NCBI GenBank assembly: GCA_018003315.1
Contig: JAGNEJ010000022.1
Span: 1 to 57,979 of the forward strand
Direction: 5' to 3'
Origin: Verrucomicrobiales bacterium
GTDB taxonomy: Bacteria > Verrucomicrobiota > Verrucomicrobiia > Verrucomicrobiales > V1-33
DNA length: 57,979 nt
The position numbers and the translations under genes were made by a program. The notes under the pieces were generated by a model. That model ran no database searches. It was not told the origin of the DNA and saw only the letters and a list, made by a program, of their open reading frames with translations. Below, piece after piece: positions 34,598 through 45,412 of this stretch; position 1 is the stretch's first letter, and each line of letters starts with the position of its first letter.

Positions 34598-35068
34598 TCC
34601 GCACCATAGCGACGGTTACGGTGGTGACAAATGGGCCGGTCCGCTTTCCGATTGCCCGAACAGGGCCGGACAAGGTGTCCGAGCGGCGCTTGGCAAGGCG
34701 CTGCCTGCGGATGAGAGCGGGGCGGCAGTTTTGCAGTCGGTGCCGAAGCGCCCCGTGCGCGTCAGGGGCTGACGGCCGCCAGGCATCGGCAGTCGAAACC
34801 GCAGTCCTGACAAAAACACAGGTGCTGTGATGCGGGATGCTCAAGTTTCGGGCAGGGGCAAACGGAACGGCATGGGGCCTGGGTTCCAGGCTTTGTGATC
34901 CCGGAAAATGGCAGCGCGAACGGGCAGCCTGGTTTCAGACACACAAAAAGCCTGGTTTCGAATGCACGCGGACAAGGGCAAAGATGCCTCTTGCCTCCGG
35001 GGGGGCAGTTCTGATAGACGCTGCAGCATTCCGGAGTTCTGGAAATGTTATTTGCGCCTTCACTTCCC
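34598..35068. other. Intergenic region, mostly without recognised genes
   Basis: About 470 bases between divergent genes. It contains a possible small Cys-rich reading frame on the minus strand (34762-35070) and short repeats of GCCTGGTTTC (in 34927-34960). No clear promoter motif was identified for either flanking gene. Confidence 0.6.
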
Positions 35069-35070
35069 AT
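34762..35070 (-). CDS. Possible small Cys-rich protein
   Basis: A 102-residue frame starting with ATG next to the divergent start of the secreted GDPD gene. It has about 17 Cys, many in CPCP, CFCQDCGFDCRC and C-x4-C arrangements that could form metal sites. No family is recognised. No clear ribosome binding site was seen, and Cys-rich frames can arise by chance on the complement of Gly/Ala-rich DNA, so this is only a candidate. Confidence 0.3.
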   Translation of the reverse strand: MGSEGANNISRTPECCSVYQNCPPGGKRHLCPCPRAFETRLFVCLKPGCPFALPFSGITKPGTQAPCRSVCPCPKLEHPASQHLCFCQDCGFDCRCLAAVSP

Positions 35071-37735
35071 GAATCACTTCCTTGCACTTCCTTTCCTGCT
35101 GGCCTGTTCCATCTCCAGCGCCGCCACTGTCTGGAACTTTTCCAATACCGGCGATCCCCTGGCACCGGTTTCCGGGCCTGGGACGATGGCCTATCACGAT
35201 CCCGGTGCGACGAACTGGGCCGCCGGACAAGTGAGCTTCGCCAAAGCCAGTGTGCTGGGGCTTCCGGCGCTGCCGGGGGGCGATGCCGACGTCATGGTGT
35301 TTCCTGCCTGCACCCCGCAGCAGGGTTTTGTGGTCACGCACGGGGAAAATGCCAGCGGAGTGTATGGAGAGTCGCTGGGCCTGGTGTCCAGCTATACCCT
35401 GGTCATGGATGTCCTCTACCCGGCCTCCTCCAATGGCTGGCGGGCGCTTTGGCAGTCCAGTCTGGCCAACTCAGACGATGCCGATTTTTTCATCAACAAC
35501 GCGGTCCCGACTGGAGGACTGGGAACGCTGGGGAATTATCGCGGTGCGGTCACTGCCGGCGAATGGCACCGCATCGTGGTGACGATGCGTGCGGCCCCCG
35601 GCGAGGGACACTGCCAGCGCTACATTGACGGACAGTTTGTTGGCGGCGTCGGCACCACTGGAAACCCTCTGGAACAGCGGCATGCAATGGAAAGCCAGTT
35701 TCTGCTCTTCACGGATGACGACGACGAAACAGCGCCCGGCTACTGCGCCAGCGTGGCTTTTTTGAATTTTGCCATGCTGCCTGCGGAGGTGGCCGCGCTG
35801 GGCGGACCTCATGCTGGCGGCGCACTCACACCCGGAGCCGCACCGGCACCGCTTTCGCCGCCGATGGCGCGCCGGACCGGTGTCATCGCGCACCGCGGCG
35901 GGGCTTTCAACCGTGCGCCGGACAATACGCTGTCCGGCATTCGGGCGGCGATTGCCGATGGAGTGCAGGGCATCGAGGTGGACACCCGGGTTACCGCGGA
36001 TGGCGTGTGCATTGCCTTTCATGACAGCACGGTGGACCGCACCACGAATGGCACCGGTGCGGTGGAAGCCATGACCCTGGCGGAACTGAAGACGCTGGAT
36101 GCGGGCTCGTGGTACCACCCGTCCTTCACCGGGGAACAGGTGGCGGCCCTGTCGGAAGTGCTCACGGAAGCCAAGGGGAAATGCTTCATCTTCCTCGACA
36201 TCAAAACCGCCGGCCAGGCTCCAGCAATCCGCGCCGCGGTGGATGCGGCCGTCTTTCCTCAGCAGGACTTGTGGCTGTGGACCACGACTTCCGAGGATGT
36301 GGCAGCCATGCAAGCGGAGCTTCCGGATGCGGTCTATATGTGGGGCGCTCCGTCAGGATCCTGGAGCACGGATCCCAATTACTTTACGGACCTCAAAACC
36401 ATGGGCGTGGACGGCTTTTCCTTCGGTGCCGGCAACGGTTCGGTGGACAGTTACTTCTGCGCCCGGGCCAAGGAGGAGGGCATGCGGGTGGAAATTTTCA
36501 CCATCCTCGATCCGGATGCGATGCGGCAGGCCGCGCTCTCGGGCGTGGACTTTGTGGAGAACGACTATCCGTCTGTCATGAATGCGCTGCAGCCCGTGCA
36601 GACTGCGGCTGCCAGCAGCCCCTTTCCAGCCAACGGGGCCACGGAAGTGCCGACCGAAGTGGTGCTGCGTTGGGTGACTGGCCAGAATGCGGTGCAGCGC
36701 CGCGTTTATTTCGGCACCACTCCGCCGGGTGCCGATCTTGGCGTGCGCACCAGCGACCTGCTGGCGCGCACCGGCCTCGCGGCGGCGACAACCTATTATT
36801 GGCGGGTGGATGAAATGACCGCGGGAGGCGTGACCACGCAGGGACCGGTATGGAGCTTTACCACGGTGGCCGCGGCGGCGACCCCGCTCGCCGGGCTGTG
36901 GCTTTTTGACAGGCCGGACGATCCCGGCCATGCGACGATCGGCAGCGACCTTCAGATCGAAGGCACCACGCCCCAGGCATTTTCCGCCGTGAGTGACGAT
37001 GCCGGATTCACCGTCAGCGGGGCGATCCTCACCAGCGAGGGGGTGGCCAGTCGGCTGCGCAGCGTGCATGGCATCGGTGCCAATGGAGGCGGGACATACA
37101 CAAACCGTTACAGCATCGTGGCCGATGTCTATTCACCGCCTGCCAGCCGCACATTTTACCGTTCCTTTCTGCAGACGGACCCCAACAACGGAAATGACGG
37201 CGACTACTTCCTGCGCGATTCGGACAGCCGCATCGGAACCGCGGCCCTTGGGTACGGACCGGCGGTGGACGACACGCGCTGGACGCGCATCGTCTTCAGC
37301 GTGGACCTGCAGGCAGCCGCGGCTTCGTCGGTCATCCGCACCCACTTGAATGGCGGCGCACCATTCATGCACACCGGCCTGGCGCGGGACGGACGTTATT
37401 CGCTCGACACCTCCGTATTCTTTTTCACGGACAACGACGGGGAAAATCCGCCCATTTACGTCGGAATGCTCGCGTTGTTTGCCGGTCCATTGAGTCTTGC
37501 CCAAGTGGAGCAGCTGGGGGCGGTGCGCTCCGAGGGGCTTTATGCACGCCCCAGCCTGCAGCTCAGCGCCGCCGGGGCCATGGTGGACTTTGCCTGGCCT
37601 GCCACGCCTGGCTACCTGCTGCAAAAAAGTGCGGATCTTTTGAATTGGACAAATCTCGAGGAAACCATCAATCTCGGCGCATGGTCCCTGCCGCGGGATC
37701 AGCCGCATCAATTTTTCCGTCTTGCACCCCGCTGA
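35069..37735 (+). CDS. Secreted glycerophosphodiester phosphodiesterase with LamG-like domains
   Basis: 888 residues. Signal peptide (1-19, SSAATVW), a first LamG-like domain (about 20-250), then a GDPD barrel (about 268-525) starting with VIAHRGGAFNRAPDNTL and GIEVDTRVTADGVCIAFHDSTVDRTTNG split over two blocks: H-R and E-x-D early, HD later, then FLDIK and FVENDYPS at the end. The catalytic His pair and acidic residues are present. An FN3-like domain (about 530-605) and a second LamG-like domain (about 610-815) follow; the end (LLQKSADLLNWTNLEE...FFRL) is a common verrucomicrobial C-terminus. It should hydrolyse glycerophosphodiesters outside the cytoplasm. The second LamG-like module is homologous to the next gene. 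Confidence 0.88.
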   Translation: MNHFLALPFLLACSISSAATVWNFSNTGDPLAPVSGPGTMAYHDPGATNWAAGQVSFAKASVLGLPALPGGDADVMVFPACTPQQGFVVTHGENASGVYGESLGLVSSYTLVMDVLYPASSNGWRALWQSSLANSDDADFFINNAVPTGGLGTLGNYRGAVTAGEWHRIVVTMRAAPGEGHCQRYIDGQFVGGVGTTGNPLEQRHAMESQFLLFTDDDDETAPGYCASVAFLNFAMLPAEVAALGGPHAGGALTPGAAPAPLSPPMARRTGVIAHRGGAFNRAPDNTLSGIRAAIADGVQGIEVDTRVTADGVCIAFHDSTVDRTTNGTGAVEAMTLAELKTLDAGSWYHPSFTGEQVAALSEVLTEAKGKCFIFLDIKTAGQAPAIRAAVDAAVFPQQDLWLWTTTSEDVAAMQAELPDAVYMWGAPSGSWSTDPNYFTDLKTMGVDGFSFGAGNGSVDSYFCARAKEEGMRVEIFTILDPDAMRQAALSGVDFVENDYPSVMNALQPVQTAAASSPFPANGATEVPTEVVLRWVTGQNAVQRRVYFGTTPPGADLGVRTSDLLARTGLAAATTYYWRVDEMTAGGVTTQGPVWSFTTVAAAATPLAGLWLFDRPDDPGHATIGSDLQIEGTTPQAFSAVSDDAGFTVSGAILTSEGVASRLRSVHGIGANGGGTYTNRYSIVADVYSPPASRTFYRSFLQTDPNNGNDGDYFLRDSDSRIGTAALGYGPAVDDTRWTRIVFSVDLQAAAASSVIRTHLNGGAPFMHTGLARDGRYSLDTSVFFFTDNDGENPPIYVGMLALFAGPLSLAQVEQLGAVRSEGLYARPSLQLSAAGAMVDFAWPATPGYLLQKSADLLNWTNLEETINLGAWSLPRDQPHQFFRLAPR

Positions 37736-37778: not shown

Positions 37779-38558
37779 ATGAAGCACACTCTGTTTCTCC
37801 TGCTCTTCGCCACCGCACCCGTTGGGGCCGCCACCCTTGCCGGACTGTGGGAATTCAACAATTCAGGGAATCTGGCCCAGGCCACGGTTGGCACCGACCT
37901 GAGCTTCGCTGGTTCCGCTCCCGGCAGTTGGAGCGCCACCCTGGCCGATGACGCCAGCAATGCGCTCACCGGAGTCATCACCACCCCGGCGGGTGCTCAG
38001 GCCAACATCATCTCCGCCACCCACGGCATCGCTCCGAACGGCGGCGGGGCCTACGTGAATCAATACTCGATCCTCGTGGACATCCACAGTCCCGCCAGCT
38101 CACGAAACACTTGGCGAGCCATCTACCAGACGAACACAACCAACAGCAACGACGGCGACTACTGGATTCGGGACGCCGACGACGTTTTGGGTGTCGGCGC
38201 TCTGGGTTACACCCCAACTGCCATCGATGAAACGGTCTGGAGCCGACTCGTGGTGACGTTTGATCTGGGAGCCAATGATGTGCGTACTTATCTGAACGGC
38301 TCACTGGTTTATGCGCACGGCGTCGGGGGACTCGACGGACGCTTCTCCCTGGACCCGCAGGTGCTGTTCTTCGCTGACGAGAATGGCGAGAATGCCCCGA
38401 TGAATGTCGGTGCCATCGCCATTTGGGACGGGGTCCTCACCGCCGGAGATGTCAGCGCCCTCGGTGCCGCCGGAGCCGCCATTCCCGAGCCGGGAACTGC
38501 CAGCCTGCTCGTCGGCGTATCCGTCCTGCTGCTCGGTGCCCGCCGCCGCAGACACTGA
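37779..38558 (+). CDS. Secreted PEP-CTERM protein with LamG-like domain
   Basis: 259 residues: signal peptide (1-18, GAATLAG), one beta-sandwich module, and a PEP-CTERM tail (IPEPGTASLL, hydrophobic helix, RRRRH). The module aligns by eye with residues about 610-815 of the upstream GDPD protein: LAGLW-F at the start, HGI-PNGGG-Y-N-YSI--D-HSP, NDGDY--RD-D, and a final ENAPMNVGAIAIW/ENPPIYVGMLALF block. The two genes are 43 bp apart and probably co-transcribed, the module having been duplicated. The PEP-CTERM tail predicts exosortase processing and surface or matrix location. Function unknown. Confidence 0.87.
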   Translation: MKHTLFLLLFATAPVGAATLAGLWEFNNSGNLAQATVGTDLSFAGSAPGSWSATLADDASNALTGVITTPAGAQANIISATHGIAPNGGGAYVNQYSILVDIHSPASSRNTWRAIYQTNTTNSNDGDYWIRDADDVLGVGALGYTPTAIDETVWSRLVVTFDLGANDVRTYLNGSLVYAHGVGGLDGRFSLDPQVLFFADENGENAPMNVGAIAIWDGVLTAGDVSALGAAGAAIPEPGTASLLVGVSVLLLGARRRRH

Positions 38559-38832: not shown

Positions 38833-41331
38833 ATGCTGCCGACCTCTGCTGCGCTGGACAAACTGGTGCTGCCCTCCCTGCCGGTGCCGTCCCGGAGCGG
38901 GAGCGCCGTGGAGTTCACCGTGCAGGGGGCAGAGCTTCCGCCGACACCCAGTGCGGCGCTCACCGCTGCCTGTCACCTCATTCCCTGCATGGCTGCCCGC
39001 CGGACGCTGCAGCTGCCGGAACCGCTGGACGCACGCCTGGCGCTCGGATTGCCCAAGTTGATCCAGCTGCTGGCGGAATGGAATCCCACCCTGCATTCCA
39101 TTTCGGTCAAAACCGCATCGGACAAGCCCTGCGTCCCTCCGTCCAAAGGGACCCGCGGGGTTGCCGCCTGCTTTACCGGGGGAGTGGATTCCTTCTACAC
39201 GTTGGTGACGCGACGCGGGGAAATCGACACCCTGATTTATGTCCTCGGTTATGACCTTCAGCAAAAACAGGAGACGCTGTGGCAGCAGGTGCGGACCATG
39301 ATTGAGGCGGTGGCGGCCCACTATCAAAAGCGCCTGATTGTCGTGCGGACGAATCTGAGGCGGTTTCTGGATCCGCTGCTGCCGTGGGGCATGACCCACG
39401 GAACCGGTCTGGCAGCCGTGGGGCATTTGCTGTCCAATGAAATCCAGCGTCTGATCATCCCCACCGGATTCGCCGCAAATCAACAGCAGCCGTGGGGGTC
39501 GCATCCGGAACTGGATCCACTCTGGAGCAGCCAGGCATTGGAAATCGAGCATGATTCCATCGAACCGACCCGGCTGGAAAAGTTGCGCCGGCTGGCAGAG
39601 GAAGAATTTCCGCTCCGGCACCTGCGGGTTTGCTGGAAAAATCCAGACCAAACCTACAACTGTGGCAAGTGCGCCAAATGTTTCCGCACCGTGGCCGGAC
39701 TGGCGGCGCTCGGGGCGCTTGGGCGGACGCAGGTTTTCCCTCCACGGCCCGATCTCGCTGCGGCGGCCCGGTTGGATTTGGGGGAAGAACTCGACGCTCT
39801 GTACCTCGCAGAAGTGCGGGCGGAACTCGACCGCACTGGACGAGAGCCGGACCTGAACGCTTTCCTGCACAGGCTTCCGGGAGCCGACCGTTCGCTGTCG
39901 GTGCCATTTGCCCGCCTGCGTCATCAGAACAGACGGCAAAAGGAACCTTTGGTGGTCAGGGCAGCACGTCTCTCGGTGGCCAGCGGGCAGACCGAGTTGC
40001 GCGCGGAAATCCAGTGGGGCGACCTGCGCACCGTCCTGGAAGTGGCTTTTGATCTGGGCGGCGAGGCACCGGGTTTGGCGGGCGATGCGCTTTTGCTGTG
40101 GATGGTGCTGCCCGCCATGCGCAGCGGCGTGCCGTTGGTGCTGGAGGATCCGGTATCCGCGGATCTGCTGGAGGGAATCAGCCATGCTCAGGGTTTCTGG
40201 TCGTCCCATCGCGCCTTTGCCGGCCATTCCCGCATCGCCATCCACGCACCTGAAATGCCCCGCTCACGAAAACCCGAAACGGAGCGGCCCTGGGCAGTCG
40301 CGTTCTCCGGCGGAGTGGATGCCATGTTCACTGCCCGGTCAGAACGGCAGCGCATCGGATTCCTGGTGTGGATCGACGGCATGGACAGCGAGGCCGTCGA
40401 TCCATCCGGGAGACACCGCACCCACCGCTGGATGCAGGAAGGTGCCGCGGCGCTGGAATTGCCGCTGGTCACGGTGCGCACCAACCTGCGCCGCGTGCTC
40501 TGCAGGGATTTGGGAGCCTCACAGGAATTGATGCGCCTCATGGCCCCCTGCGGACTGGCCCATCTTCTGCAGGCACATGTCGGGGGCATGTTTCTGGCGG
40601 CGGAATGCAGCCATGCGGACATGGTGTCCAGAAATTCCCTGCCATTTCCCCATCCGCTGCTTGACAGCTGGCTGTGCACACCACGCACCGCCATCCGAAC
40701 CCATGGAATGACGCAGGACCGCTGGCAAAAGCTGGCGGCACTGTGCGCCACGCCGGATTTGCTGGACCGGCTGGTGGTATGCCCGCAGCCGGACTTGGCC
40801 GGAGCGCGCAACTGCGGACGGTGTGAACATTGTCAGGAAACCCTGCTGGCCATCCGCGCGGCGGGAGGCCCGCACCCTGCGGCAGCCTTTGATGGTCCGC
40901 TGGATTTGCAGTGGTTCACTGGCTCCTCCGACGCACCGCCCCTGGTTGCTGACCGGCTCCGATCCTATCAAACCATGGAACGGCACCTGCAAACTGACAT
41001 TCCCAATCCGGAACTGCTCGCCCTGCTGAGTCCACTCCTCCGCCGTGCGGAAGAAAGAGAGGCCGCCAGTCAGGCGAAAGCCACGCTCGACAAGCTGCGG
41101 AGGGATCCGCACTGGCCGGTCCTGCTTGCGGAGCACGGAGCGGTCCTGGCGGAGGCACTGTTCGCAGACAAGCCGTCGGCGCGTCTGCAGGCGCTGCTTG
41201 AGGATCCGCCTTCCGCCGGCCTTGGGGAATGTCTGCTGCCTGCTGTGCGTAAGGATGCCGGACGCGGCCGGATGCTGCGCCGGATTTTTTGCAAACTCCT
41301 GCGGGGGGATTTTGGAGGAACCACCACATGA
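38833..41331 (+). CDS. Tandem two-module PP-loop (ExsB/QueC-like) protein
   Basis: 832 residues made of two homologous modules, each a mixed alpha/beta N-terminal part followed by a PP-loop ATPase domain. Module 1 has CFTGGVDSFYTL (TGGVDS 115-120), TNLRRFLDPLLPWG, and a metal site C267-x9-C277-GK-C280-AK-C283. Module 2 has AFSGGVDAMFT (SGGVDA 492-497), TNLRRVLCRDLG, and C650-x10-C661-GR-C664-EH-C667. PP-loop enzymes adenylate a carboxyl or carbonyl group; QueC uses the same zinc-Cys layout. A similar NCGKCxKC tail occurs in uncharacterised proteins of polysaccharide gene clusters. The substrate is unknown. The stop overlaps the next start as ATGA. Start choice is not supported by a clear ribosome binding site. 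Confidence 0.78.
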   Translation: MLPTSAALDKLVLPSLPVPSRSGSAVEFTVQGAELPPTPSAALTAACHLIPCMAARRTLQLPEPLDARLALGLPKLIQLLAEWNPTLHSISVKTASDKPCVPPSKGTRGVAACFTGGVDSFYTLVTRRGEIDTLIYVLGYDLQQKQETLWQQVRTMIEAVAAHYQKRLIVVRTNLRRFLDPLLPWGMTHGTGLAAVGHLLSNEIQRLIIPTGFAANQQQPWGSHPELDPLWSSQALEIEHDSIEPTRLEKLRRLAEEEFPLRHLRVCWKNPDQTYNCGKCAKCFRTVAGLAALGALGRTQVFPPRPDLAAAARLDLGEELDALYLAEVRAELDRTGREPDLNAFLHRLPGADRSLSVPFARLRHQNRRQKEPLVVRAARLSVASGQTELRAEIQWGDLRTVLEVAFDLGGEAPGLAGDALLLWMVLPAMRSGVPLVLEDPVSADLLEGISHAQGFWSSHRAFAGHSRIAIHAPEMPRSRKPETERPWAVAFSGGVDAMFTARSERQRIGFLVWIDGMDSEAVDPSGRHRTHRWMQEGAAALELPLVTVRTNLRRVLCRDLGASQELMRLMAPCGLAHLLQAHVGGMFLAAECSHADMVSRNSLPFPHPLLDSWLCTPRTAIRTHGMTQDRWQKLAALCATPDLLDRLVVCPQPDLAGARNCGRCEHCQETLLAIRAAGGPHPAAAFDGPLDLQWFTGSSDAPPLVADRLRSYQTMERHLQTDIPNPELLALLSPLLRRAEEREAASQAKATLDKLRRDPHWPVLLAEHGAVLAEALFADKPSARLQALLEDPPSAGLGECLLPAVRKDAGRGRMLRRIFCKLLRGDFGGTTT

Positions 41332-42665
41332 GCCTCCCAGCATGGCAATCCGCTCCGGATGGTGTCCGGATTTTCATTCCAGATCCGGTTTTGGAGGAAT
41401 CGCACCGGGGGGCGGAGTATTCCTTTTCCGTGTGGTTGGAACGCCGTCAGACGGGGCCGCTGCTGCTCGGAAATGTCACCTTCTCGTTGAATGTGGCCGT
41501 CGGACGAGTCGCAGATGCCGGTTCTGCCGCTCTCCTGGTGGCACTGCTGCCGGCGATGCGCATGGGCCTACCGCTGCGGATCGAGGCGCCCGTCTCCCCA
41601 TTGCTGCTGCAGCATGCCCGCGAGGTTCAGGAAATTTTTTCCACCTGGCTGGATGCGCTGACGGTGGTGCCCGTCCAGGCTCCGTGCGCTCAGCCTGCCG
41701 CACCTTCCGCGGACGATGGGCGCGGCACGGCCTGCCTGTTTGCGCCGGACGTCGATGGATTTCATACGCTGCAGCGGCAGGGCGACGGCATCACAGATCT
41801 GCTCTGCATTCGCGCACTGGATGCCAGTGGTGACCAGAACGCCCCGCGAACGGCATTGGTAAAGGTTGCTGCCCGGCATGGCAGGCCGCTGATGGTTGTT
41901 CACACGAACGCACGGAGCTTCACCGATTCCTTTCTCCGGTGGGACCACTGCTGCGGCTTCGTTGCGGGGGCGGCGGCGCACCTGCTTGCCAACCACCTGG
42001 CCCGGGTCTTTGTGGCATCGAGTGCGCCGTATGACGGATTCGTCCCGTTCGGAACAAACGCGCTCACCGATCCGCTGCTCTCCAGCGAGCGCTTGACGAT
42101 GGTGCATGACGGAGCGGAATTTTCCCGTCTGCAAAAATTGGAACAGCTCGCGCAGGATCCGTTCGTCCTGCAAAACCTCCGCGTCTGTCGGGAAAACGAG
42201 GGAACCGCGCAGAACTGCGGTCGCTGCGCCCTGTGCCTGCACGCCATGACGGCACTTTCCCTGCAGGGCGTGCTGGATGCCAGTCCGGTATTTCCTCAGC
42301 AGATTGACCTGAACGCCATCCGCAAACTGCGGCTTGAAGAGCAGTCTCTGCTGGATGCGCACGAACTCCAGGATCATGCGCGGCAGCTGGGAATGGAGGA
42401 CTCGCCGCTCATGCAGGCCTGGGAGGAGTGTCTCGTCCGCGGCATGGCCGAATCCCTGACAAATCCAGCGGCGGAATTTGTGAAGTCCCTCCCCAGACGC
42501 GATCGCGAGCTGCTGCTGGAGGACTTGCGCCGCCATGCTCCCGACGCGCTTTGTCGCGCAGCGGCAAACCATGCCGGGCGCTCCCGCCAGGCGGTGTTCG
42601 ACTTCCTCTGGAAACGGCACCGCCCGGCAGTGCTGCGTTCCCTTTTCAAGCGCGATCGGCCATGA
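41328..42665 (+). CDS. PP-loop protein homologue with degenerate nucleotide loop
   Basis: 445 residues, a third copy of the module in the preceding gene. Residues 62-112 (ALLVALLPAMRMGLPLRIEAPVSPLLL) match residues 419-465 of the upstream protein. The Cys site is complete (C287, NCGRC C297/C300, C303), and VHTNARSFTDSFLRW replaces VRTNLRR. The ATP loop, however, reads CLFAPDVDGFHTL (139-144 APDVDG in place of SGGVDS), so pyrophosphate binding is probably lost. It is likely a non-catalytic partner that forms a complex with the active protein. GGAGG precedes the ATG by 9 bases, and the start overlaps the previous stop (ATGA). Confidence 0.75.
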   Translation: MSLPAWQSAPDGVRIFIPDPVLEESHRGAEYSFSVWLERRQTGPLLLGNVTFSLNVAVGRVADAGSAALLVALLPAMRMGLPLRIEAPVSPLLLQHAREVQEIFSTWLDALTVVPVQAPCAQPAAPSADDGRGTACLFAPDVDGFHTLQRQGDGITDLLCIRALDASGDQNAPRTALVKVAARHGRPLMVVHTNARSFTDSFLRWDHCCGFVAGAAAHLLANHLARVFVASSAPYDGFVPFGTNALTDPLLSSERLTMVHDGAEFSRLQKLEQLAQDPFVLQNLRVCRENEGTAQNCGRCALCLHAMTALSLQGVLDASPVFPQQIDLNAIRKLRLEEQSLLDAHELQDHARQLGMEDSPLMQAWEECLVRGMAESLTNPAAEFVKSLPRRDRELLLEDLRRHAPDALCRAAANHAGRSRQAVFDFLWKRHRPAVLRSLFKRDRP

Positions 42666-43930
42666 AAACAAAGCGCATTCTGATACTGGGTGGCACCACC
42701 CACGCCAACCGCGGAGACCTCGCGATGCAGGCGGGGCTGATCCAATGGCTGCAGCGAGAAGTGCCGGGAGCCGAAATCCGGATGCTGGCCTCCAACCCTG
42801 ACCTGACACGACAGGTGCTGGGAGTGCCCGCATTTCCCTCGCCCGATTCCTGGCTGGCCACTCCTTGGACCAGGGAAACCCCCACCAGCACCAGCCAACG
42901 AAAACGGGCCATCCGAAAGGGGCGCCGCTTCGCAATCCAAACCCGTCTGGCGCGATGGATTCCCGTTGCGGTGCATCCGTCCGCCAGGGAATTCGCCTCC
43001 CATCTGCGGTGGGCAGATGCGGTGTTTGTGCCGGGCAGCGGGTCCATGAACAGCCTGTGGTGGCATGACTGGCTCTATCCCAAAGCGTTTACCGTTCTGG
43101 CAGCCGCAGTTCTGAGAAAACCTGTGTTTATGACCAGCCAGGGGGTTGGCCCGGCCTTTTCCCATGCCTTGGATGCTGCGGTGGCCGGACGGATGTTCCG
43201 CGCCTGCCGGGCCGTCGGAGTCAGGGACGGCGAAGCCTCCGGCGCCATTCTGCGCAGCGTCGGCGTGGATGCAGGATCCATCCTCCTCACCGGCGATGAC
43301 GCCCTGCTTTTCACCTCGGATGCCCAGGCACTCTCCCGCCCCCACGGCAAGCTGGTGGGGGTGAACCTGCGCGATTCCTCCGGTTATGGTAAGCGGTATC
43401 CAAAACCGGAACTCGAAGCCTGCGCGACCGCTCTGCGCCGGGTGCTCCAGCGTGACGCCGCCGTAAAGCTGGTGTTCATCCCCATCAGTTATGATTCCCA
43501 CGACGATGACCGCAAATCCGCTGCCGCGGTGGCCTCGCTAATCGGCCTGCCCGAACGGATCACCCTCATTACCGAGGAACTGGATGCCGCACAACTGCGC
43601 GGAACCATCGCCGGAATGGATGTCTGTCTCGGAGTTTCCTATCATTTTTTGCTCTTCGCCTTGTCCTCCGGCGTGCCCTGCCTCGGCTTTTGGCAAAACC
43701 CCTACTACCAGCAGAAACTCGGCGGGCTGTTCCGGCTCTTCGAGTGGGAAGACCAGGCGCTGGATTTTTCCGCAGGCATTTCCGAAAACTCCCAGGAGCT
43801 GCTTGCCGACCGCCTCGCAAGCCTGCTGGAAAACCGCAACAGGCATCACCGAATGCTGGCACAACGTCAGTCGGTCATTGACAGTGAATGCCGCGCGGCA
43901 AGAAATCAAATTCTCCACCGCCTCGCATGA
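42662..43930 (+). CDS. Polysaccharide pyruvyl transferase-like protein
   Basis: 422 residues with the fold of CsaB/WcaK-type pyruvyl transferases: ILILGGTTHANRGDLAMQAGLI at the start (GGTTHANRGDLAM), FVPGSGSMNS, FMTSQGVGPAF, GVRDGEAS, and the C-terminal HFLLFALSSGVPCLGF in place of the family's H-RIHA/SGVP block (YHFLLFALSSGVP). It would add pyruvate from PEP to a sugar of a surface polymer, or act as a related glycosyltransferase. Overlaps both neighbours by ATGA, so it belongs to the same translationally coupled unit as the PP-loop genes. Confidence 0.78.
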   Translation: MKTKRILILGGTTHANRGDLAMQAGLIQWLQREVPGAEIRMLASNPDLTRQVLGVPAFPSPDSWLATPWTRETPTSTSQRKRAIRKGRRFAIQTRLARWIPVAVHPSAREFASHLRWADAVFVPGSGSMNSLWWHDWLYPKAFTVLAAAVLRKPVFMTSQGVGPAFSHALDAAVAGRMFRACRAVGVRDGEASGAILRSVGVDAGSILLTGDDALLFTSDAQALSRPHGKLVGVNLRDSSGYGKRYPKPELEACATALRRVLQRDAAVKLVFIPISYDSHDDDRKSAAAVASLIGLPERITLITEELDAAQLRGTIAGMDVCLGVSYHFLLFALSSGVPCLGFWQNPYYQQKLGGLFRLFEWEDQALDFSAGISENSQELLADRLASLLENRNRHHRMLAQRQSVIDSECRAARNQILHRLA

Positions 43931-44850
43931 CGCCAGCCATTGCCATCATCACCCGGACAAAAAACCGCCCGCAACTGCTGGAAAGGGCGCTGCGTTCGAT
44001 CCTCGCCCAAAGCCTGTCCGACTGGATTTGGGTCGTGGTGAACGCAGGGGAAGCTGCGCCGGTGGAGGCCCTGTTCACCAAATACGCCGGTGCGCTCAAG
44101 GGGCGCGCTCGGCTGCACCAGATTCCTCCGGACACAACCATCAGCGCCGCTTCCAACCATGGCATTCGCGCCAGTGACAGCCGGCTGGTCACCCTGCTGG
44201 ACGATGACGACACCTGGGAGCCGGACTTTTTGGAGTCGATGCTCGGGGCACTGGACAGCAAGCCGAACGTCGCGACCGCAGGAGTGGCCTGCCATGCGCT
44301 GTGCGTCGAGGAGGAACCCGATGAACACGGCAACCTGAAGCCAACCAAGGAGTATTTGCAAAACCCGCAGTTGCGAAACCTCAGCCTGGGTCTGATGGCG
44401 GTGATGAACCAGTTCTGCGTTCATGCCTTCGTGTATGAGCGCAGAGCCTTTGATCTGCTGGGTGGATACACGGAAACCCTGCCTGTGCTCGACGACTGGG
44501 AATTCAACCTCCGGTTCCTTCGCCGGTTTGACATCCAATTCCTGCCCCGTCCGCTGGCCCGCTACCACCTGCGCCCCGCCGTGTCGCAGGGGGACGGGGC
44601 GAATTCACAGTACGCCGCGCAGCCACTGCACCTGCATTTCGAGGCCCACATCATCAATGAAGCGCTGCGGGCCGACGCGGAGGGGCGCGGCCAGGGACTC
44701 GGGCTGCTGCTGGCCCAGGGAGCCGCCCAGCGGCAAATTTTGCAAGGCATGCGGAGCGCCGGACGCAGGCTGGAATCCATCAGCAAAAAGGTCGGCAGCA
44801 TCGACTCCCGAACCAAAACCCTCAAGGATCACGTCCTGCGAAAAAGCTAG
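43927..44850 (+). CDS. Family 2 glycosyltransferase
   Basis: 307 residues. GT-A features are AIAIITRTKNRPQLLERALRSILAQ at the N-terminus (IITRTKNRPQLLERAL), AASNHGIRASDSRLVTLLDDDDTWEPDFLE with the metal-binding DDDD, and GGYTETLPVLDDWEFNLRFL with the catalytic-base region. The C-terminal 80 residues are helical and polar (about 225-307), probably for partner or membrane contact. It is the last gene of the four-gene ATGA-linked unit and probably builds the glycan that the other products modify. Confidence 0.88.
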   Translation: MTPAIAIITRTKNRPQLLERALRSILAQSLSDWIWVVVNAGEAAPVEALFTKYAGALKGRARLHQIPPDTTISAASNHGIRASDSRLVTLLDDDDTWEPDFLESMLGALDSKPNVATAGVACHALCVEEEPDEHGNLKPTKEYLQNPQLRNLSLGLMAVMNQFCVHAFVYERRAFDLLGGYTETLPVLDDWEFNLRFLRRFDIQFLPRPLARYHLRPAVSQGDGANSQYAAQPLHLHFEAHIINEALRADAEGRGQGLGLLLAQGAAQRQILQGMRSAGRRLESISKKVGSIDSRTKTLKDHVLRKS

Positions 44851-45007: not shown

Positions 45008-45412
45008 ATGGATATTCAAGTGGCAACCCTCTGTGATTCGGCGATGGATTATAACAGCAAGCTGTGCGTCCTCGGAACGTTTGACACCATTGGCTCCCGG
45101 ACCCTTCCGGTGCTGCACCGGAACTGCGTGCTGGCACTGCGCGTCTGCTTCCGTCCCACCGACGAGGGGCAGCACAATTTATCGATCCGGATCATCGACG
45201 TGGACGGAAAGGATGTGATTCCGGCGCTGCCGCCGGTACAGTTCGAAGTGCGGCTGCCCCAGGATGTTGATTTTGTGACCCGAAACATGATCCTGCATTT
45301 CGAAGCGCTGAAGTTCGACCAGCCGGGGACATTTTCGATCGAGATCTCGGTGGATGGCAACGAACTGAGTTCGATTCCACTGCGCGTGGTTTACATGCCG
45401 GCACAGGGGTAA
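45008..45412 (+). CDS. DUF6941-like small beta-rich protein
   Basis: 134 residues, no signal peptide or membrane helix. The pattern LCDSAMDYNSKLCVLGTFDTI, ALRVCFRPTDEGQHNLSIRIIDVDG and LPLRVVY-like ending (IPLRVVYMP) is that of the DUF6941 family, common in Planctomycetota and Verrucomicrobiota, with no known function. Strands predominate and an immunoglobulin-like sandwich is likely. It stands alone, 157 bp after the glycosyltransferase. Confidence 0.75.
   Translation: MDIQVATLCDSAMDYNSKLCVLGTFDTIGSRTLPVLHRNCVLALRVCFRPTDEGQHNLSIRIIDVDGKDVIPALPPVQFEVRLPQDVDFVTRNMILHFEALKFDQPGTFSIEISVDGNELSSIPLRVVYMPAQG

Follow-up and report, generated by a model that had tools for sequence, protein, structure and literature searches.

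QueC (7-cyano-7-deazaguanine synthase, PF06508) and Cap9 of the type IV cyclic oligonucleotide-based anti-phage signalling system (CBASS) carry out ATP-dependent amide-forming steps on a carboxylate, and the same has been proposed for QatC of the anti-phage system QatABCD (PMC13329287, PMC13279940). The superfamily is currently topical, with Cap9 modifying proteins and QatC thought to do so. A 2026 survey of PF06508 mentions no branch linked to pyruvyl transferases or glycosyltransferases, and a search of open-licence PMC papers found none that connects pyruvyl transferase or glycosyltransferase clusters with a PP-loop or QueC-like protein. Here, we describe such a link, exemplified by a four-gene operon on a stretch of 57,979 nucleotides from a Verrucomicrobiales bacterium (assembly GCA_018003315.1, contig JAGNEJ010000022.1, positions 1 to 57,979 of the forward strand; hereafter the window), in which three modules related to QatC and QueC precede a member of the pyruvyl transferase family PS_pyruv_trans (PF04230) and a family 2 glycosyltransferase (GT2). 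An earlier reading of the DNA sequence (the original prediction) had known of no described pathway with this set of genes, and none was found in our literature search. To our knowledge, no described member of PF04230 has an ATP pyrophosphatase as partner.

Operon architecture and module features

The operon consists of four intact open reading frames (ORFs) on the + strand (38833-44850), coupled via three ATGA stop/start overlaps (41328-41331, 42662-42665, 43927-43930), and both the ORF coordinates and all three junctions are exactly as originally predicted. Gene 1 (38833..41331, 832 aa) encodes a tandem QatC/QueC-like PP-loop protein composed of the modules M1 and M2 and a helical C-terminus, gene 2 (41328..42665, 445 aa) carries a third module (M3), gene 3 (42662..43930, 422 aa) belongs to the PS_pyruv_trans family (Pfam PF04230, E 8.4e-29; 101.8 bits versus a gathering score of 25.3), and gene 4 (43927..44850, 307 aa) is a GT2 glycosyltransferase (Pfam PF00535, E 1.9e-16; 60.9 bits versus a gathering cut-off of 23.3).

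M1 (38833..39948, residues 1-372) starts with an N-terminal extension of ~105 aa, followed by a QueC-like core with the PP-loop TGGVDS (39175..39192, residues 115-120) and a four-Cys site formed by C267/C277/C280/C283 (CWKNPDQTYNCGKCAKC; 39631..39681, including NCGKCAKC), which would bind zinc by analogy with QueC and QatC. M2 (39949..41052, residues 373-740) has the PP-loop SGGVDA (40306..40323, residues 492-497) and a four-Cys site with NCGRCEHC (40780..40833, residues 650-667). At the corresponding PP-loop position M3 reads APDVDG (41742..41759, residues 139-144), a broken motif, and its four-Cys site is retained (42186..42236, residues 287-303, NCGRCALC); from these residues M3 is probably a pseudoenzyme. 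BLASTP shows all three modules to be homologous (M1/M3 34%, E 5e-42; M2/M3 ~30%, E 2e-20; M1/M2 26%, E 1e-12), and each keeps the pattern C...NCGxCxxC, so that homology and motifs both bear out the two PP-loop/Cys modules foreseen for gene 1 and the degenerate third copy in gene 2.

Profile searches recognize these modules poorly. Gene 1 matches QueC (PF06508) only below threshold (E 0.06, 13.2 bits, gathering score 22), gene 2 has no match in Pfam, and the modules reach none of the cut-offs tried from Pfam, NCBIfam and PADLOC, while just four of 48 relatives reach E 0.01 for PF06508. No further module copy was detected with gene 1 as query against its own genome, and phmmer searches of genes 1 and 3 against PDB sequences returned nothing useful.

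Predicted fold and family motifs

Predicted structures match QatC, QueC and Cap9 and thereby recover the adenine-nucleotide-alpha-hydrolase fold that had been anticipated. The M1 model (predicted local distance difference test, pLDDT, 91.4; predicted template modelling score, pTM, 0.90) has QatC as its best PDB match (Foldseek E 1.7e-5; Z 14.6 over 291 residues), followed by QueC (Z 12.2, 185 residues), Cap9 (Z 11.3) and LarE (Z 10.1). The M1-QatC alignment begins at residue 17, so the match extends into the N-terminal extension. In the AlphaFold2 model of the whole gene 1 protein (pLDDT 82.6, pTM 0.75), M2 (368-738) aligns with QatC at Z 15.6 over 297 residues with 17% identity. Across the modules QueC scores Z 12-13, and LarE, MnmA and TtuA rank lower (Z about 8-10). 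Computation thus shows that M1 and M2 share a predicted QatC-like arrangement of N-terminal extension, QueC-like PP-loop core and four-Cys site. Of the two models invoked originally, QueC stands among the closest folds together with QatC and Cap9, whereas WbpG does not.

The likeness to QatC (PDB 9y01/9y02, 9vlk) comprises the N-terminal extension, QueC-like core, C-terminal helices, PP-loop and four-Cys site; however, the Cys site of QatC is spaced C(x)19 compared to mostly C(x)9 in our modules, its motifs are absent, and the module partners are PS_pyruv_trans and GT2 proteins. With QueC the modules share the PP-loop core and apparently the C-terminal Cx8-9CxxCxxC site, but they have an additional N-terminal extension and fall below the Pfam cut-off, and the genome holds a separate true QueC. 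Cap9, similar in fold and four-Cys site, lacks the N-terminal extension, and the modules are accompanied by glycan genes rather than a CD-NTase.

Motif counts over 147 family modules sharpen this picture. The complete set of four Cys is found in 146 of them, and there is no conserved Cys column besides these; the PP-loop [ST]GGxD[SAG], which M1 and M2 fit and M3 does not, occurs in 118. The Cys-site spacing is C(x)9 in 103/147 and x8, as in the QueC pattern C(x)8CxxCxxC, in 14/147, and the frequency of NCGxCEKC is biased upward because this string served to find 79 of the loci. The substrate motifs of QueC are practically missing (YxQxHxxE 0/147, VPxRN 1/147, YPDC 0/147), as are those QatC motifs that are distinctive enough for such a check (D(x)4R(x)7WxR 0/147, P(x)4TK 2/147) and the base-recognition motif YxDC of Cap9 (0/147). 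Among 48 members PADLOC gave no match and the NCBIfam QatC model one weak match (E 0.0098). Fold, Cys site and motif tests together point to a QueC/QatC-like ATP pyrophosphatase that nevertheless falls outside both families in their current definitions, and the modules are best read as an unnamed new clade of the QueC/QatC superfamily. Several family members show similarity to DUF6395 (PF19932) near the Cys site, below cut-off, so this domain may represent a sister clade; no publication on it was found in the open-licence PMC literature. One DUF6395 gene (L183:13820-14587) shares a Priestia plasmid with two module genes.

Coupling to PS_pyruv_trans and GT2 genes

The family is coupled to PS_pyruv_trans and GT2 genes, even to the point of forming a single polypeptide. 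Loci were gathered by the module alone, so their neighbours were not selected for (PP denotes the PP-loop/four-Cys module, PYV denotes PS_pyruv_trans, and numbers with L or G denote loci or genomes). Among 130 immediate same-strand neighbours, Pfam assigned 28 to PS_pyruv_trans, 13 to GT2, 7 to Asn_synthase and 4 to ATPgrasp_ST. In 130 genes at least five positions away in the same loci, GT2 was counted three times, and PS_pyruv_trans and Asn_synthase at most twice each, a bound set by their absence from the 25 families listed, the last of which had two members. A hidden Markov model (HMM) seeded from neighbours found PYV-like genes in 33/223 cases at distance 1, 10/201 at distance 2 and 2/519 at distances of five or more; given this seeding from near genes, the Pfam counts provide the less biased comparison. 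A PYV gene adjoined the module in 33 of the 117 loci, whereas 2000 permutations gave 11.7 on average and never more than 22.

The gene order recurs as well. PP-PP-PYV-GT2 was found at L029, in another family of the order, PP-PYV-GT2 at L081, L103 and L168 in other families and phyla, and GT2-PP-PYV at L116, while close homologues of gene 4 also adjoin modules at L029 and L032. The recurrence of these orders, and of the three-module set in other genera (see below), argues that the operon architecture is not a product of chance. Recurrence, Pfam tallies and permutation thus all agree with the conserved neighbourhood of PP-loop modules, pyruvyl transferases and GT2 genes that had been foreseen. 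Fusions take the coupling further: GT2-PS_pyruv_trans-PP (L080:6824-10228, 1134 aa, in the near-complete 3.5 Mb genome G204), PS_pyruv_trans-PP (L091, 772 aa) and PP-PS_pyruv_trans (L142, 724 aa), and at L100 a GT2-PS_pyruv_trans protein adjoins the module. Independently annotated plasmids agree: those of Gemmobacter, Azospirillum and Gloeothece each have a PYV next to the family member, and in Priestia the PYV neighbours a tandem pair. In Nostoc the family gene lies amid polysaccharide genes, and in Halorientalis an ATP-grasp gene lies alongside.

Other amide-forming enzymes are also found nearby (Asn_synthase, ATP-grasp, FemAB/GNAT). Immediately upstream of the module there is often a gene of ~600 aa (L108, L110, L111, L118, L119, L120); it is Asn_synthase/GATase_7 in L111 and L119, and the rest were compared by size or included in the Pfam counts only.

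Distribution and module lineages

Modules are carried by 11 of 57 genomes of relatives and by 29 of 384 genomes of the class. A pattern scan of ~85,000 species genomes yielded at least 554 confirmed relatives in Verrucomicrobiota, Omnitrophota, Nitrospirota, Chloroflexota, Actinomycetota, Pseudomonadota, Campylobacterota, Cyanobacteria, Woesebacteria and others, and plasmid records extend the family to Bacillota and haloarchaea. Every annotated relative that we saw is labelled 'hypothetical protein'.

The set of a fused M1-M2 and a separate M3 also exists in other genera (L026, L018/L024). M1, M2 and M3 each group by position (support 0.987, 0.991 and 0.968, respectively; M3 with L026, L018 and L024), indicating that the three modules are old, separate lineages. 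The M3 PP-loop reads SLGVDS in L018/L024, APDVDG in the window and RGDVHS, accompanied by loss of Cys, in L026; by these sequences, the PP-loop is being lost in the M3 lineage. A second conserved pair of paralogues, likewise clustering by position, occurs in a cyanobacterium (Okeania, L113), a gammaproteobacterium (Thiogranum, L123) and a metagenome-assembled genome of Verrucomicrobiales (L132). Its second paralogue has the sequence LSGGVDG, and the distribution of the pair suggests transfer as a unit.

Putative role in surface-glycan tailoring

We consider it an even chance that the operon is a surface-glycan tailoring unit in which the new clade would adenylate a carboxylate and form an amide or other acyl bond on a glycan intermediate. 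Carboxylate activation followed by amide or acyl bond formation is the likeliest role in view of the core shared by QueC, Cap9 and QatC, the QatC-like shell, the glycan partners and the amide-forming neighbours. The active module (M1, probably also M2) would split ATP into AMP and pyrophosphate and convert a carboxylate to an acyl-adenylate, as QueC and Cap9 do, upon which attack by an amine or ammonia would yield an amide, or a different acyl bond would form. The substrate might be a lipid- or nucleotide-linked saccharide and the target either a sugar carboxyl (pyruvate ketal, uronic acid) or a small acid to be joined to an amino sugar. GT2 would add a sugar, the PS_pyruv_trans protein would decorate it, and M3, having lost its PP-loop, would probably support gene 1 in a structural or regulatory capacity.

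A bolder version, which we propose only tentatively and think somewhat doubtful, is that the widespread family performs a hitherto unseen glycan modification, namely ATP-dependent amidation or amide conjugation at a sugar carboxyl such as a pyruvate ketal, by a trio of GT2, PS_pyruv_trans and QatC-like proteins that in some cases is a single polypeptide, the catalytic and pseudoenzyme paralogues acting together as a set. Should the reading as carboxylate activation on glycans hold, it would extend the superfamily beyond nucleobases and protein termini to include glycans and account for many 'hypothetical' genes of polysaccharide clusters. The natural fusions L080 (three-domain) and L142 (two-domain) offer targets for single-protein assays.

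Several observations weigh against a glycan-tailoring role. The window operon is not embedded in a full polysaccharide cluster. PYV lies within two genes in 46/117 loci and ~60% are without it, which makes it a recurrent rather than obligate partner. The reaction of QatC has not been reconstituted in vitro (PMC13279940), so this protein is an uncertain guide. Several actinobacterial copies lie near lipid acyltransferases and a FemAB protein instead of PYV: members in Williamsia, Rhodococcus and Tomitella (L131, L140, L147, L148) come in groups of two to four, and the neighbours checked there included WS/DGAT acyltransferases, a lipase, a fatty acid desaturase and a FemAB protein, not pyruvyl transferase. 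These groups possibly represent a second pathway.

Finally, gene 3 is without two of the four known contacts to phosphoenolpyruvate (PEP). In CsaB, PEP binding requires R148, H308 and K328, and R306 was docked to PEP, with R217/R337 as counterparts in Pvg1p (PMC10435577, PMC4872226). According to a sequence alignment that did not include CsaB itself, Arg188 of gene 3 (VRD, 43223..43225, + strand) is taken as the R148 position, and S326-Y-H328 (43637..43645, + strand) keeps the His of H308, but Ser replaces R306; the K328 position reads Tyr348, with a Lys occurring four residues past it. Gene 3 is a PF04230 member like CsaB, Pvg1p and WcaK, yet with these two replacements it is perhaps no genuine pyruvyl transferase, which calls its earlier label into question. 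On sequence grounds, pyruvylation by PYV partners seems plausible across the family generally and uncertain for gene 3 in the window operon.

The replaced contacts could also mean that the module makes an acyl-adenylate donor from which the PS_pyruv_trans-like protein moves the acyl group, instead of PEP, to the sugar. The same [S/T]-Y-H plus Tyr variant in the partners at L029, L081, L116, L150 and L168 would fit such a donor, as would the direct PP-PYV fusions. Nevertheless, R-x-H and Lys are intact in the fusions L080 and L091 and in L100, L103 and L119, so the partnership needs no changed donor, and free acyl-adenylates are labile. We therefore regard an activated donor as unlikely.

Quite unlikely, too, is a sugar amidotransferase of the WbpG/NASAT type (N-acetyl sugar amidotransferase), in which ammonia would turn the N-acetyl group of a sugar into acetamidino. 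NASAT is a PP-loop, zinc-tetracysteine enzyme of lipopolysaccharide synthesis (PMC10607449) and as such acts, like the proposed unit, on surface glycans, and ammonia could come from the Asn_synthase/GATase neighbours. However, its Cys motifs are ordered otherwise, with CxxC first (CXXC...[GN]XCXXC; PMC10607449), whereas CxxC ahead of the PP-loop (tested solely as CxxC before SGGxDS) was found in 2/147 modules, and QatC, QueC and Cap9, not WbpG/NASAT, are the nearest folds.

The original prediction had spoken of nitrogen- or sulfur-transfer chemistry on a glycan. Sulfur transfer of the LarE, TtuA or MnmA kind, with a thio-sugar or thiocarboxylate as product, could be suspected from the presence of all three enzymes in the fold list and from a sub-threshold LarE HMM match in M2, but is very unlikely because no Cys is conserved beyond the four expected to bind zinc. 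Moreover, a four-Cys zinc site is the pattern of QueC and QatC, while LarE relies on a single Cys or on three that hold a [4Fe-4S] cluster (PMC13329287). Taken as a whole, the original interpretation is partly supported: neither of the two outcomes named beforehand as refuting it, a different fold or an unconserved gene neighbourhood, was obtained, and its chemistry narrows to carboxyl activation of the QueC/QatC kind, while the glycan chemistry stays an inference.

That both gene types merely pile up in variable polysaccharide clusters and belong to no common pathway would agree with the sporadic distribution in the class, but is improbable to a still greater degree: PYV genes concentrate at distance 1 and are almost absent at distances of five or more in the same loci, and the fusions come in three domain layouts. 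An anti-phage system related to Qat, suggested by QatC as best structural match, is highly improbable, since PADLOC found nothing in the 48 members, QatC motifs are nearly missing (0/147, 2/147) and the neighbours are glycan genes; phage records searched with one family member gave no match. There is only the slightest chance of a Cap9-like conjugation of a deazaguanine nucleobase to a glycan or protein, even though 7-carboxy-7-deazaguanine takes part in the actual or proposed reactions of the closest relatives and the window genome carries its own QueC and PTPS: YPDC and YxQxHxxE are absent from all modules and genome G155, listed as 100% complete, has a module and no QueC or PTPS match, so dependence on deazaguanine was rejected.

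Genomic surroundings

The operon is preceded by a gene for a protein of 896 aa with a glycerophosphodiester phosphodiesterase (GDPD) domain and a laminin-G-like domain (35045-37735) and by a PEP-CTERM-like gene (37779-38558). A DUF6941 gene (45008-45412, + strand, E 2e-40) follows 157 bases past its end. Promoter and terminator scans of the operon gave background levels only, and Rfam had no match. In a locus of the same genus (L032:6028-10096), exosortase EpsH and DUF3485 are followed by GT2 and a module; together with the PEP-CTERM-like gene ahead of the window operon, this context hints at a possible link to exosortase-dependent surface proteins.

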